NCBI GenBank assembly: GCA_001767195.1
Contig: MEKU01000056.1
Coordinates: 1 to 34,535 of the forward strand
Length of the DNA: 34,535 nucleotides
Direction: 5' to 3'
Source: Acidobacteria bacterium RIFCSPLOWO2_02_FULL_67_21
GTDB lineage: Bacteria > Acidobacteriota > Vicinamibacteria > Vicinamibacterales > UBA2999
Shown here: piece by piece, positions 25,371 to 33,884 of the stretch
Position numbering within the stretch: position 1 is the stretch's first letter
Layout of the letters: every line of letters begins with the position of its first letter
Notes under the pieces: model-generated
What the model was told of the DNA's origin: nothing
The model's database searches: none
What the model saw: the letters and a program-made list of their open reading frames with translations, nothing else
Translations under genes and position numbers: made by a program

Positions 25371-25395
25371 AATATTGATTTTGCAGGAGATGTTC

Positions 25396-26448
25396 ATGCG
25401 TAACCGTATCGTGGCCGTTGCGGTCGCCCTCCTGGCGATACTCGCAGTGGTTCCCACCGGGGCGGAAATCATCGAGCAGGTGCTCGTCAACGTCAACGGC
25501 GACATCCTGACGAAAACCGAGTTCGAGACCCGTCAGGTCGCCACGCTGCGCAACCGGCCCGAGCTGGCCAACGTGACGCCGGACAGCCCGGCGCTCCGCC
25601 AGGCCATTGCCGAGGTCACGCCCCAGCTCATCCTGGAGGCGGTCGACGAGCTACTGCTCATCCAGCGCGGCCGGGAGCTCGGACTCGCGCTGGGGGACGA
25701 GCAGTTCAAGAGCATCCTCGACAACATCAAGAAGTCGAACAACCTCGAAGAGGAGGAACAGTTCCAGGCCGCGCTCAAGCAGGAGGGGCTGACGATGGAC
25801 GACCTGCGCCGCAATCTCGAACGGCAGATGCTGGCCTCCGAGGCGCAGCGGCGCGACATCTTCGACAAGATCAGCGTCACGGAGGCGGAGGCGCGGGCGC
25901 ACTACGACGCGCACATGCAGGAGTTCACGACCCCGTCCGAGCTCACGCTGCGGGAGATCCTCATTGAAGTGCCGACCAGCGATCGCGGCGTCAACGTCGC
26001 GCAGGACGACGAGGCGCTGGCGGAGGCCGAGGATGTCCGGAAGCGGCTGCTCGCGGGCGAGCCGTTCGCGCGGCTGGCGGCCGAGCACTCGGATGCGCCG
26101 TCGAAGGCCAACGGCGGGTTGATCGGGCCCATCAAGCGCGAGGAGCTCGCCGAGGCGCTGCAGCAGCGGCTCGACGGGTTGAAGGTCGGCGACCTCACCG
26201 ATGTGATCCGGACGCAGCGGGGCTATCAGATCCTGAAGCTCGAGTCGCGCACCGAAACCCGCATACGGTCCTTCGATGACGCCCGCAGCGACATCAGCAC
26301 CAGTGTGGCCAACGAGAAGATGGCGGGCGAGCGTACCAAGTATCTGGAACGGCTCCGCAGCCAGGCGACGATCACGTGGCGCAACGACGAGCTGAAGCGC
26401 GCGTACGAACGCGCGCTGGCGGAGCGGACGAAGGCCCTGGCGGGATGA
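25396..26448 (+). CDS. SurA-like periplasmic peptidyl-prolyl isomerase/chaperone
   Basis: Secreted foldase for envelope proteins. 350 residues from the ATG at 25396, which has AGGAG six bases upstream (25385-25389). Signal peptide RNRIVAVAVALLAILAVVPTGA at about 2-23. SurA-type helical N-domain (VNGDILTKTEFETRQ) and one parvulin domain at about 181-280 (LREILIEV...FARLAAEHSDAPSKANGGLIGPI...GYQILKLESR). E. coli SurA has two parvulin domains; only one is present here, as in many SurA-like proteins. The stop codon lies in a palindrome (26441-26471). The symbol is left blank because orthology with surA is not certain. Confidence 0.87.
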   Translation: MRNRIVAVAVALLAILAVVPTGAEIIEQVLVNVNGDILTKTEFETRQVATLRNRPELANVTPDSPALRQAIAEVTPQLILEAVDELLLIQRGRELGLALGDEQFKSILDNIKKSNNLEEEEQFQAALKQEGLTMDDLRRNLERQMLASEAQRRDIFDKISVTEAEARAHYDAHMQEFTTPSELTLREILIEVPTSDRGVNVAQDDEALAEAEDVRKRLLAGEPFARLAAEHSDAPSKANGGLIGPIKREELAEALQQRLDGLKVGDLTDVIRTQRGYQILKLESRTETRIRSFDDARSDISTSVANEKMAGERTKYLERLRSQATITWRNDELKRAYERALAERTKALAG

Positions 26449-26495
26449 CCCTTCGACAGGCTCAGGGTCATCCCGAGTGCGGGGTCGAGGGATGA
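26441..26495. repeat. Palindrome spanning the surA-like stop and the nusG-like start
   Basis: Perfect arms GGATGACCCT (26441-26450) and AGGGTCATCC (26462-26471) with the core TTCGACAGGCTC. A further GGATGACC lies at 26488-26495. The left arm supplies the TGA stop of the upstream gene; the last copy supplies the ATG of the downstream gene. Its CCCTTCGAC...GCTCAGGG core is shared with the palindrome in rnpA (4873-4894). Confidence 0.8.
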
Positions 26496-26983
26496 CCGGC
26501 GCATGGTTCGCGCTCTGGACGCGGTCGCGCCATGAACAGGTCGTCCGCGAGCAGCTCGAGCGCAGGCACATCGAGGCCTTCCTGCCGACCATCACGCGGT
26601 GGAGCCGGTGGAAGGATCGCAAGAAGAAGATCGACTGGCCGCTGTTCCCCGGCTACTGCTTCGCGCGGTTCGACCCGAGCGAGCGGCTGCCGATCCTCAA
26701 GTGCACCGGGGTCGTCAACATCGTGTCATTCGAGGGCGAGCCCGCGCCCATCCCCGAACACGAGATCGCGGGCATCAGACAGCTGGTCGAAAGCGATCTC
26801 GCGTACGATCCCTGCCCGATGATCCACGAGGGGATGATGGTGGAGGTCATGCACGGGCCGCTCAAGGGCGTCGTCGGCCGGCTCGTCCGCAAGGGCTCGC
26901 ACGCGCGTCTCGTGCTGTCGGTCGATCTGATCGGACAGGCCGTCAGCGTCGAGGTCGACGCGGCCGACGTGCGGGCATACTAG
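26492..26983 (+). CDS. NusG-family transcription elongation/antitermination paralogue (RfaH/UpxY-like)
   Basis: Specialised NusG paralogue that would bind RNA polymerase and promote transcription of long operons. 163 residues from the ATG at 26492. NGN domain at about 1-95 (WFALWTRSRHEQVVREQLERRHIEAFLPT, then PLFPGYCFARF) and a C-terminal KOW domain at about 110-160 (EGMMVEVMHGPLKGVVGRLVRKG). A GTG at 26477 could add five residues, but it falls inside the palindrome. Sequence style and size fit the UpxY/RfaH group rather than housekeeping NusG, which normally sits beside secE and rplK. It overlaps dusB by one base. Targets are unknown; the nearby glycan exporter is a natural candidate. Confidence 0.86.
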   Translation: MTGAWFALWTRSRHEQVVREQLERRHIEAFLPTITRWSRWKDRKKKIDWPLFPGYCFARFDPSERLPILKCTGVVNIVSFEGEPAPIPEHEIAGIRQLVESDLAYDPCPMIHEGMMVEVMHGPLKGVVGRLVRKGSHARLVLSVDLIGQAVSVEVDAADVRAY

Positions 26984-29210: not shown

Positions 29211-30587
<1,377 letters not shown>

Positions 30588-30660
30588 GGAGTCGCCAATA
30601 TTTTGACACAGGACGTGCCTCGCCCGTTTTCGAGGGGTCCTGGGAGCCGTCTAAGGATTG

Positions 30661-30690
30661 TGTATGTCCCTGCCGATACAGGTCTTGTAT
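30661..30690. promoter_or_regulatory. TGTAT/ATACA operator-like repeats in the divergent spacer
   Basis: TGTAT (30661-30665), ATACA (30676-30680) and TGTAT (30686-30690) form two overlapping inverted pairs in the spacer between the NtrC-type gene and the HTH gene, the last overlapping the HTH gene's ATG. Possible autoregulatory operator of the HTH protein. Motif-based only; a clear promoter for either gene was not found. Confidence 0.35.
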
Positions 30691-30907
30691 GGAGCGCCAA
30701 ACCCTCTCGATCATGAAGGCCTGCGAAGCGGTGGGCGTCAGCCGGCGGACGATCTACAACTGGATATCCGCCGGAAAGGTGGAGTACGTCAGGACCGCCG
30801 GCGGCTCGATCCGCATCTTTGCGGATACGCTGTGGCGCGATGCCAGCCCCAGCCCGTCACGAACAGCATCGCCGAGCGCGACGACGGCTGCCGGGCGCCA
30901 CGCGTGA
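30689..30907 (+). CDS. Small excisionase/MerR-type helix-turn-helix protein
   Basis: 72 residues. An HTH of the HTH_17/excisionase kind at about 7-30 (SIMKACEAVGVSRRTIYNWISAGK) is followed by a wing (VEYVRTAGGSIRIFADTLWR), then a Ser/Pro/Ala-rich tail. The frame continues upstream, but this ATG begins the recognisable domain; no Shine-Dalgarno is evident. Divergent from the NtrC-type regulator, and its stop overlaps the GTG start of the next gene by four bases. No integrase is nearby, so it is more likely a transcription regulator than a recombination directionality factor. Confidence 0.8.
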   Translation: MERQTLSIMKACEAVGVSRRTIYNWISAGKVEYVRTAGGSIRIFADTLWRDASPSPSRTASPSATTAAGRHA

Positions 30908-31149
30908 ACCTGTCGTCGGCGATGCCGGAACGGGCGGAGGAACCAGTGGACGATCGGCTGGAGTTCAGACGCCTGTTCCACCAGTTGAACAACCAGCTTG
31001 GGATAATCCTGGCCCACGCGGAACTGCTCGAATCAAAGGCCTCCGAGGAGTCGACACGCGTGCGGGCGGCGCAGGTCGTCGCCAGCGTGCTGGAGGCGAT
31101 GACCACCGCCCGCGAAATTCGCCGGCGCGCGGAACCCGCCGGCGTTTGA
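30904..31149 (+). CDS. Stand-alone HisKA/DHp-like hairpin protein, no ATPase domain
   Basis: 81 residues. After a charged N-terminus (1-20), LEFRRLFHQLNNQLGIILAHAELLES resembles the H-box helix of histidine kinases (H26; compare HELNNPLATIL in the kinase at 32.3-33.9 kb). A second helix ending AMTTAREIRRRAE follows. That is the length of a DHp two-helix hairpin, but no catalytic ATP-binding domain follows before the stop. The residue after His is Gln rather than Glu/Asp and the usual Pro is Gln, so autokinase partners or phosphotransfer may differ from the norm. The GTG start overlaps the HTH gene stop (GTGA), indicating coupled expression. It could act as a phosphotransfer hub or as an inhibitor by heterodimerising with a kinase; both are inferences. 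Confidence 0.65.
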   Translation: MNLSSAMPERAEEPVDDRLEFRRLFHQLNNQLGIILAHAELLESKASEESTRVRAAQVVASVLEAMTTAREIRRRAEPAGV

Positions 31150-31461
31150 AGCCGGTTCGTTCCGAATCAGCACACAGAAGGCTGTCTCGGCAGGCTTCTG
31201 TTCAACGCGGCGAATAATACTATTTTTGTAATTCGATACGTCAAATAAATGGCGACACGGAGGCCTCTTATCGCCAATGGTTTGACGATTTGCCTTGATC
31301 CCGGTCTCGCCGCGATTACAATCCGGACTCCCTGGATTATCCATAACGTGCAGAAATAAGAAGTACTTACTGTTTCAGCACGCGGTGTCATCCGGTTGAC
31401 GACGAGTGCGGCTCTGCCATTGGTACCTACGTTGCCTACCCCGTGCGCCGGAGGTCACTGC
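31150..31461. other. Intergenic region before the sigma factor gene
   Basis: About 312 bases, noticeably A+T-richer than the genes around it. It holds a possible weak terminator (CAGAAG...CTTCTG, 31175-31200, with an interrupted inner stem), a probable promoter at 31295-31322, and a TGGAT-T-ATCCA palindrome (31333-31343). No small ORF or RNA gene is recognised; an unannotated small RNA is possible but unsupported. Confidence 0.5.
31295..31322 (+). promoter_or_regulatory. Possible sigma-70 promoter of the sigma factor gene
   Basis: TTGATC (31295-31300), a 16-base spacer, TACAAT (31317-31322). It would give an unusually long leader of about 135 bases before the ATG at 31462, leaving room for leader control. 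Confidence 0.45.
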
Positions 31462-32484
31462 ATGCGTCCCCCCAGAGGCAAGGCCGAGCGGCGCGTGGTT
31501 GCCGCGCTCCCGTTCGTCGAACAGCTCGCACGGCGCGTTGCGGCGACCATGCCGCACTCCATCGATATCGGGGACCTGGTGCAGGACGGGGTGATTGGCC
31601 TCATCGACGCGGCGCACCGGTTTGACGAAGCGCGCGGCATCAAGTTCGAGACGTTTGCCGAGCGGCGGGTCCGCGGCGCGATGATCGACGCGCTGCGCAA
31701 GGATGCATGGCCGCGCGGCGTCCGGCGGCAGCGGCGGGAGCTCGAAGCGGCGCGCGAGCAGCTGCGCCGGGAGCTCGGCTGCGAGCCGTCGCTGGCGGAC
31801 CTGGCGGCCAAGGTCGGGTCCGACGAGAAGCGTCTGGGGCGGACGATCGTTCGCATCCACACCATCGAGTCGACCTCGCCGCTGGCGAACAACGAGCACA
31901 ACGAGTCGTCGTTGCCTGCGACGCTGCTCCCCGCCGAACCCGAGCAGCCCGATCGGGCCTACGAGCGCGAGGAGACCAAGGCGCGAATCTATGCCGCCAT
32001 CGCCTCACTGCCGCCGCGGGAGCAGAAGGTGATCGGCCTGTACTACTACGGCGAAGCGACGATGAAGCAGATCGGCGCCGAAATCGGGGTGAATGAGTCG
32101 CGCGTGTCGCAGCTTCACGCGCGCGCCATCCGGCGCCTGCGCGACGCGCTCGGGTCAGCCGTGCAGCCGGCGGAAGCGGCGGCCGTGATACGGAACGCGA
32201 TCCTGGCGTTCCAGCAGAAGCCCAGGATGGCCAAGGCCACGCTCGAGGGGCGCGGATGGACCGCCAGCGGCGGCGGGGCGGTCACGCCGGGTCACGGCGT
32301 GGTTGTTCCTTACGCCAGCGTCTCGCGCACGGCGCGCAGCAAGTCGCCGAGCCGGAACGGCTTGGCCAGCCAGCGGCAGCCGCTGTCGTCGAGAAAGCGC
32401 TCGGCGTCGGTGCCCGCCACGTCGCCGGTCACGAAGATGATGCGGCGCGCCAGCGCGGGCGTCGCGGCGGCAATCGCCCGATAG
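31462..32484 (+). CDS. RNA polymerase sigma factor of the FliA/WhiG (sigma-28) type with long C-terminal tail
   Basis: Alternative sigma factor. 340 residues from the ATG at 31462, chosen for GGAGGT (31450-31455) six or seven bases upstream. Region 2 (DIGDLVQDGVIGLIDAAHRFDEARGIKF, about 36-62, then FAERRVRGAMIDALRKDAWPRGVRR) is typical of FliA/WhiG. Region 3 is at about 92-130. Region 4 ends with the HTH MKQIGAEIGVNESRVSQLHARAIRRLRD (about 201-228). Family members are about 240-260 residues; the remaining about 90 residues are low-complexity. The last 175 bases are antisense to the receiver domain of the convergent kinase, so the tail may be an accident of a lost stop or a real extension. No flagellar genes are in the window. 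Confidence 0.88.
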   Translation: MRPPRGKAERRVVAALPFVEQLARRVAATMPHSIDIGDLVQDGVIGLIDAAHRFDEARGIKFETFAERRVRGAMIDALRKDAWPRGVRRQRRELEAAREQLRRELGCEPSLADLAAKVGSDEKRLGRTIVRIHTIESTSPLANNEHNESSLPATLLPAEPEQPDRAYEREETKARIYAAIASLPPREQKVIGLYYYGEATMKQIGAEIGVNESRVSQLHARAIRRLRDALGSAVQPAEAAAVIRNAILAFQQKPRMAKATLEGRGWTASGGGAVTPGHGVVVPYASVSRTARSKSPSRNGLASQRQPLSSRKRSASVPATSPVTKMMRRASAGVAAAIAR

Positions 32485-33884
32485 AACGTCATTCCGTCGA
32501 CGCGCGGCATCTTCAGGTCGCAGACGATCACGTCATACGTCTTCTGCCGCACGCGGGCGAGGGCCTCTTCGCCGTCGGCGGCATGGTCCACCAGCAGCCC
32601 TGCATCGGTGAGCGCGTCGCCGAGCGCCGTGGCGAGCGCCCGCTCGTCCTCGACGAGCAGCACGGCCGCTCCGCGCACCGCCTCCATGGACGGCGCTGCG
32701 GGACGGAGCGAACGCGCCGGCGCGTCGGATCCGCTGACCGGCAGCTCCACGATGAAGGAGGCGCCCCGGCCCGGCCGCGAGTCGACACGGATCCGCCCGC
32801 CATGCTCCTGCATGATGGCGTAGGCGACGGTCAGCCCCAGCCCCGTGCCCTCCCCGACCTCCTTGGTCGTGAAGAACGGGTCGAAAATCTTGGTGCGCAT
32901 CTCCACGGGCACGCCGGGGCCGTCGTCGCTGACCTCGAGCGCCACCGAGTCGTCGTCGCCGTTGTGCCAGGTCCGCACGACGAGCGAGCCGCGGCCGTTC
33001 GCCGAGAGCATCGCCTGTTCGGCGTTGATCACGAGATTGAGCAGCACCTGCTGGATCTGATGGGGGTCGGCGAACACGCTGGGAAGCCCCGACGCCAGCG
33101 CCGTGACCACCTCGACGTTGGTCAGCCGGTGCTCGTCCGCGCGCAGGCCGAGCGTGTCGGTCACGACCTGGTTGAGGTCGATCATCGTGCGCGTCGACTG
33201 GCGCTTGCGCGCGAAGGTCAGGAGATTGCGGACGATGCGGGCCGCCCGGTCCGCCTCCCCGAGAATGACATCGACGCCGCGCCGCGTGGCCTGGTCCAGC
33301 TCCTTGTCGGCGAGCCGCTCCGCCCAGCTCAGGATGGTGGCGAGGGGGTTGTTCAGCTCATGCGCGACGCCGGAAATCGTCTGCCCGAGCGCGGCCAGCT
33401 TCTCCGCCTGCAGCAGCTGCTGATAGAGATCGCGCGACTGATCGTCGAGCTTCTTCCGCTCGCTGACGTCGCGAAGCAGCGCCTCGACGATCAGGCCGCC
33501 GGATCGATCGCGCTCGGCGCTGGCGGTGACTTCCACCCACAGGCTGGAGCCGTCGAGGCGGCGCATGCGCAGCAGGTACCCCGTGACCGCGCCTTCGACG
33601 CCGAGCCGTTCGAACAACGCGCCCCGGGCCGCGGGGTCGGCGAACCGGTCGGGAGCAAACGGCGCGATCGCCGCATCCGGCGTCGCGGCGTCGTAGCCGA
33701 ACATCGCTCGCAGACAGGGATTGGCGGCCAGCGTCTCACCGCCGGTCCCTTCGCGGCCGACCGAGCCGATGAAGACGCCCTCGCGCACCGCTTCGAACAG
33801 CCGCGCCACCGCGCGCGATCGGGAGCGGGGCGGGGAGGATCGTGTGGATCTGGCGGGCACGGGGCGACGATTATAGGGCTTCAA
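32310..33884 (-). CDS. Hybrid sensor histidine kinase with C-terminal receiver
   Basis: Cytosolic signalling kinase; no transmembrane segment visible. 524 residues as called. PAS domain at about 25-140, then HisKA with H175 in SGVAHELNNPLATIL. HATPase_c motifs: N-box NLVINAEQAM, DDGPGV, FDPFFTTKEVGEGTGLGL. C-terminal receiver with acidic residues in LLVEDE, phospho-acceptor D456 (CDLKMPRVDG) and K in AKPF. The TTG start at 33884 is uncertain. A perfect minus-strand TATAAT (33875-33870) lies within its first codons, and a GTG at 33860 just inside would give a protein starting at PARSTRSS. It converges with, and overlaps, the sigma factor gene. Confidence 0.92.
   Translation of the reverse strand: MKPYNRRPVPARSTRSSPPRSRSRAVARLFEAVREGVFIGSVGREGTGGETLAANPCLRAMFGYDAATPDAAIAPFAPDRFADPAARGALFERLGVEGAVTGYLLRMRRLDGSSLWVEVTASAERDRSGGLIVEALLRDVSERKKLDDQSRDLYQQLLQAEKLAALGQTISGVAHELNNPLATILSWAERLADKELDQATRRGVDVILGEADRAARIVRNLLTFARKRQSTRTMIDLNQVVTDTLGLRADEHRLTNVEVVTALASGLPSVFADPHQIQQVLLNLVINAEQAMLSANGRGSLVVRTWHNGDDDSVALEVSDDGPGVPVEMRTKIFDPFFTTKEVGEGTGLGLTVAYAIMQEHGGRIRVDSRPGRGASFIVELPVSGSDAPARSLRPAAPSMEAVRGAAVLLVEDERALATALGDALTDAGLLVDHAADGEEALARVRQKTYDVIVCDLKMPRVDGMTFYRAIAAATPALARRIIFVTGDVAGTDAERFLDDSGCRWLAKPFRLGDLLRAVRETLA

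Follow-up and report, generated by a model that had tools for sequence, protein, structure and literature searches.

The 81-residue protein (81-mer) encoded on a 34,535-nucleotide stretch of DNA from Acidobacteria bacterium RIFCSPLOWO2_02_FULL_67_21, referred to here as the window, is by ancestry a conserved DHp protein without a CA domain. We infer with modest confidence, chemistry and partners included, that it would be a histidine phosphotransfer protein and would exchange phosphate, inside a feedback loop, with both receivers of the cassette in which it is encoded. The cassette consists of an NtrC-type response regulator, a small HTH protein, the 81-mer, a FliA/WhiG-family sigma factor and a hybrid kinase (Table 1), and this order, with the same strands, recurred in nearly all loci examined; in the f10 genomes, the HTH, DHp and sigma genes are found together, and the regulator and the kinase are encoded elsewhere. 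As the initial annotation had described, the gene opposite the HTH-DHp pair encodes an NtrC-type regulator and is divergent from the pair, a place that is conserved, and the GTG start of the 81-mer frame overlaps the TGA stop of the HTH frame (GTGA). The 3′ ends of the sigma gene and the hybrid kinase gene also overlap. The same annotation had overlooked the sigma gene and had stated that no kinase lies nearby, which is wrong: the hybrid kinase gene, located behind the sigma gene, is a conserved member of the cassette. On the strand opposite the regulator gene, a 454-residue open frame is probably a by-product of high G+C content; comparable long antisense frames extend into the HTH or the DHp gene in relatives. 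A few kilobases upstream, genes for a PpiC/SurA-type foldase and a NusG-like protein keep their neighbourhood in many relatives.

Table 1. Genes, key codons and DNA elements of the cassette and its surroundings, in window coordinates.
Feature	Position	Strand	Basis or remark
PpiC/SurA-type foldase and NusG-like genes	25375-26983		upstream neighbours
NtrC-type response regulator	29211-30587	-	receiver, AAA+ with GAFTGA, Fis-type HTH (Pfam)
454-aa open frame	29352-30716	+	antisense to the regulator gene
Palindrome GCCAATATTTTGAC	30594-30607		adjoins the regulator start; may be bound by the regulator
FliA-type promoter CTAA-N18-CCGATA	30651-30678	+	before the HTH-DHp operon
72-aa excisionase-type HTH protein	30689-30907	+	HTH_17 / TIGR01764
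81-aa bare DHp protein (81-mer)	30904-31149	+	67-member alignment, AF2 hairpin, profile match to kinase DHp
His26 codon of the 81-mer	30979-30981	+	
Asn30 codon of the 81-mer	30991-30993	+	
Degenerate palindrome GTCAAATAAATGGC	31240-31253		upstream of the sigma gene; position fits intact copies in relatives
Palindrome GCCAATGGTTTGAC	31273-31286		possible enhancer site, ~135 bp ahead of the sigma-54 promoter
TAAGT...ACTTA-like element	31330-31375		between the palindromes and the sigma-54 promoter
Sigma-54 promoter TGGTACCTACGTTGC	31421-31435	+	upstream of the sigma gene
FliA/WhiG-family sigma factor	31462-32484	+	TIGR02479
Hybrid kinase PAS-HisKA-HATPase-receiver	32310-33884	-	Pfam

The single 81-mer matched no Pfam family, and searches of Pfam and NCBIfam gave nothing useful. 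Even among the 67 aligned members of its family, only 14 matched Pfam HisKA, weakly (best E 0.0049), and the 81-mer of the window was not among them, which leaves it short of the curated cut-off; its relation to HisKA rests on profile comparison. When the family profile was compared one to one with the cassette kinase, it aligned to the kinase DHp, His on His, with a probability of 95.7 and an E-value of 9e-9. Within the source genome, this kinase was also the protein that the 81-mer matched best after itself, albeit weakly, and outside the class the family profile found mainly DHp regions of long, kinase-sized frames. Short profile matches were set aside where the frame was no credible gene (L121 and L122) or the context was not telling (L120). 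The AF2 monomer of the 81-mer is a helical hairpin (helices 17-45 and 49-76) with a mean pLDDT of 94-98 over residues 21-70 and, together with the His-on-His profile match, supports the bare DHp-like hairpin proposed at the outset. Searching PDB sequences with the family profile gave chance-level matches only, one of them on a kinase H-box. Foldseek and VIA-align offsets placed His26 on DesK residue 188 and on residue 293 of the GacS DHp, both of which we take to be phospho-histidines; because hairpins are common, such structure searches add little to the identity of the 81-mer and were used for the position of the His only. No HATPase/CA match was found in the 81 residues, so the protein is not a complete sensor histidine kinase. 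None of the 67 members gave an HPt (PF01627) match, and the SPOB_a profile was touched by one of them (E 0.061).

Invariant across the 67 homologues are H26, L28, N30, L32, L36, E40, R54 and A65. Conservation of His26 had been set beforehand as a test that could refute the initial annotation, and the residue is present in every aligned sequence. The family accordingly has the HisKA-type phospho-acceptor His with Thr or Asn at H+4 (67/67 His and Asn) and lacks the acidic residue that follows the His in that type: the next position is Arg in 47 members, Gln in 13, Asp in 2 and another residue in 5. The 81-mer of the window has Gln there and no ATPase domain, both as first noted. Asp follows the His only in L058 and L074 (65/67 are non-acidic), and these two homologues count against our preferred reading.

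The 81-mer was present in 133 of the 193 genomes of the class, nearly always in one copy and mostly at 45-75% identity, and the HTH gene in 124/193; DHp absence in G045, G092, G105 and G129 is possibly a contig-end artefact. Relatives carrying taxon labels are mostly Acidobacteria, several of them of group 6. With class-wide conservation, the His kept in 67/67 and the gene order maintained, the 81-mer and its HTH neighbour are far beyond a chance observation. The HTH protein matched HTH_17 (E 2.9e-8). It also matched TIGR01764 (‘excise’) with an E-value of 1.6e-9 and a domain score of 38 bits, above the cut-off of 28.8; ‘excise’ is the name of the domain and no evidence for an excisionase. A mobile-element reading of this HTH protein was rejected because the cassette is kept in place class-wide.

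In the regulator, the receiver, the sigma-54 AAA+ domain with GAFTGA and the Fis-type HTH are all present, making it a complete NtrC-type protein, and its phospho-acceptor Asp is kept in 67/67 aligned sequences. The phospho-His, N-box and G1 Asp of the hybrid kinase are conserved in the alignment, and its receiver Asp is present in 61/64 aligned sequences, the other three being gapped. The sigma protein scored 199 bits against TIGR02479, above the curated cut-off of 189.6, which places it in the FliA/WhiG family, and RpoN is encoded in the source genome.

The intergenic DNA of the cassette carries two kinds of promoter. A sigma-54 promoter precedes the sigma gene in 50/54 loci, compared with 0.5 expected from shuffles. 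HTH-DHp is preceded by a FliA-type promoter, CTAA-N15-18-CCGATA, whose CCGATA box is present in 47/49 loci (1.8 expected). The whole FliA-type pattern has three sites in the source genome. Loci without the HTH gene, f15 included, carry the CCGATA box before the DHp gene, mostly as the whole promoter. Palindromes of the form GTCAA-N4-TTGAC or TTGGC lie ahead of the sigma-54 promoter, with one or more strict copies in 33/54 loci (0.2 expected), and also occur in the regulator-HTH interval in 22/49 loci (0.1 expected); of the eight sites in the source genome, two lie inside the cassette, and no sigma-54 promoter was found near the other six. The regulator may bind these palindromes, and the cassette sigma factor would read the FliA-type promoter, the basis for the latter being the consensus. 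The predicted circuit would run from the kinase to the regulator, the sigma-54 promoter, the FliA-type sigma factor and finally the HTH and DHp proteins. With the sigma gene behind a sigma-54 promoter and HTH-DHp behind a FliA-type one, the DHp protein stands downstream of the regulator, which is probably the target it acts on. The TAAGT...ACTTA-like element listed in Table 1 recurs in many loci, f15 included, and is perhaps a DNA-bending or HTH site.

Natural losses of the DHp gene bear on its relation to the kinase receiver. One older clade, within f14 (G181-G185), has lost the DHp gene but not the kinase core, regulator or sigma-54 promoter; in G181 the kinase receiver is deleted, and in G182-G185 the Mg-binding Asp of this receiver is replaced by His, Asn or Glu. 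No receiver decay was found among loci with both DHp and a complete kinase frame. Counted per genome, decay affects 5/9 genomes without DHp versus 0/~56 with it (Fisher p 1.5e-5), a value that overstates the association because the five belong to a single clade in the tree, duplicates occur among the DHp-bearing loci, and the other four of the nine comprise G070, which has no readable kinase gene, and G131, G134 and G144, whose receivers are intact. These last three, which have lost DHp (a decayed remnant is visible in G134), count against a link, as does the phospho-acceptor Asp that G182-G185 keep in the kinase receiver. Given the single-clade decay and the intact-receiver exceptions, we therefore regard the evidence for a link between DHp and the kinase receiver as moderate.

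According to the mechanism that we favour, the 81-mer would be a stand-alone DHp unable to autophosphorylate, and a phosphoryl group would move between its His26 and two receivers, one in the NtrC-type regulator and the other at the C-terminus of the hybrid kinase. With its gene at the end of the cascade that it acts upon, it would close a feedback loop. In HisKA proteins, the acid after the His is needed for kinase and not for phosphatase activity, whereas Thr or Asn at H+4 is needed for phosphatase and not for kinase activity (PMC3510030). A DHp without an ATPase domain can dephosphorylate its regulator (PMC5727384), and earlier work, as cited in that paper, describes EnvZ DHp pieces doing so. 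With the acid lost, the Asn kept and this DHp-only precedent, phosphotransfer or phosphatase chemistry is plausible for the 81-mer and autophosphorylation is not. Phosphoryl exchange is further suggested by the invariance of His26 and Asn30, the profile match to a kinase DHp, the cassette order, both promoters and the receiver decay in f14, as well as by independent bare DHps beside NtrC-type regulators (L119 and L126). The feedback would be negative if the DHp protein draws phosphate off the regulator, the drained phosphate going to the kinase receiver or being hydrolysed with the help of Asn30; towards this direction we lean only slightly, because the DHp protein appears late in the cascade and its loss leaves the remaining circuit in place. 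The DHp hairpin, the invariant His, the lost acid and the NtrC neighbour stand from the initial interpretation, and its missing kinase and its HTH-DHp unit do not.

Of the alternatives, the strongest shares the phosphotransfer claim and differs in direction: phosphate would pass in a His-Asp-His-Asp relay from the kinase via the 81-mer to the NtrC-type regulator, as from CckA via ChpT. We consider this clearly less probable, although the kinase His, the kinase receiver Asp, the DHp His and the regulator Asp are all conserved and give the four-step count, CckA is one of the kinases that the cassette kinase resembles (E 1.5e-65, with a score short of the curated cut-off), and the kinase receiver has decayed in the clade without DHp. 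Since the DHp protein is made late in the cascade, such a relay would amount to positive feedback locking the switch on, and a step made only after activation would require a basal supply. The circuit, sigma-54 promoter included, moreover survives DHp loss, which argues that the regulator is activated there without DHp. Late expression would equally suit an inhibitor, and a DHp can bind a region of another kinase, as in the RetS-GacS DHp complex among the structure matches; the 81-mer could accordingly block signalling without carrying phosphate, either by docking on the regulator or by pairing with the cassette kinase at its DHp. Such a decoy is unlikely, as it need not keep a phospho-acceptor His and an H+4 Asn in 67/67 sequences and would leave the kinase-receiver decay in the DHp-less clade unexplained.

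The remaining alternative, that the 81-mer dimerises with the HTH protein and acts only at DNA, draws on the overlap of the two genes and their usual joint conservation, the latter a further test set beforehand, which likewise did not refute the initial annotation. The two can nevertheless occur apart: in family f15 and in G162, no HTH is detectable upstream of DHp, and G070, G134, G144 and G181 keep HTH without DHp. This makes the dimerisation reading very improbable, and the pair is not supported as the functional unit initially proposed. DHp is accompanied more steadily by the regulator and hybrid kinase genes and by the sigma gene.

Among known systems, Spo0B of Bacillus takes its phosphate from a separate receiver protein, Spo0F, and has a C-terminal CA-like domain, which the 81-mer does not. 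It is a DHp-like phosphotransferase without autophosphorylation (PMC11210211), and in ChpT a DHp serves as phosphotransferase between the receiver of a hybrid kinase and a response regulator (PMC9981736), the role proposed here for the 81-mer. ChpT keeps a degenerate CA domain, whereas the 81-mer has none and ends after helix 2, so that the succession of a DHp and a degenerate CA-like domain seen in both proteins is missing. The proposed target of the 81-mer also differs in being an NtrC-type regulator, and its gene lies in a cassette behind a FliA-type promoter. On our best reading, the 81-mer would work like ChpT or Spo0B; it is a member of neither family. Isolated DHps of EnvZ and HK853 with phosphatase activity are laboratory fragments (PMC5727384), whereas the 81-mer is the product of a natural gene conserved class-wide. 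HPt proteins likewise carry a phosphotransfer His on a helical bundle without an ATPase; the 81-mer differs in having no HPt profile match and an H-box of the HisKA type, and the one HPt match in the source genome falls in another protein.

Flagellar hierarchies combine a kinase, an NtrC-type regulator, a sigma-54 promoter and a FliA-family sigma factor with CCGATA-type promoters, the same component set as the cassette. A flagellar reading of the FliA-type sigma factor was rejected because no FliP was found in the source genome, in which no flagellum is therefore expected. The FliA-type pattern precedes a REC-PilZ gene in the source genome and relatives (13/30 loci; L148:1501-2259; C41:50729 in the own genome), a PilO-like gene (pilO) in the source genome (L147, C5:2185) and three relatives (L183, L184 and L185), and a lytic transglycosylase gene in four relatives (L163, L170, L182 and L187) and not in the source genome. 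Per-genome counts of the pattern were not above the reversed control, so that only the shared positions support these targets. The REC-PilZ gene is a possible target of the cassette sigma factor, and the output of the circuit may, as a lead, be type IV pili or the cell surface.

Small DHp-like proteins are also encoded in flagellar operons of other Acidobacteriota (L116:5880-6089, -; L117:5057-5305, -; L118:4837-5247, +), directly after flgE in L116 and L118 and ahead of fliL/fliN/fliO/fliP-type genes in all three. Further bare DHps adjoin NtrC-type regulators in G124 (L119:5044-5265, -), where the gene is flanked by the regulator and a second kinase and has a hybrid kinase ahead of it, and in G040 (L126:4632-5153, +), where it lies just before the regulator.

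To our knowledge, the relay phosphotransferases on record are either HPt proteins or pseudo-kinases whose CA domain is dead, and the literature that we searched reports no natural DHp-only protein and no such cassette. We tentatively suggest that proteins of phosphotransfer or phosphatase function may include CA-less DHps as a kind so far overlooked, placed here under a sigma factor switched on by the protein's own target in a conserved phospho-feedback loop, with the copies in G124, in G040 and between flgE and fliL as further uses. A conserved natural protein consisting of the DHp hairpin only would be a minimal form of relay phosphotransferase. The cassette packs a sensor, a regulator, two sigma levels and feedback into ~5 kb and is conserved across a poorly known bacterial class.
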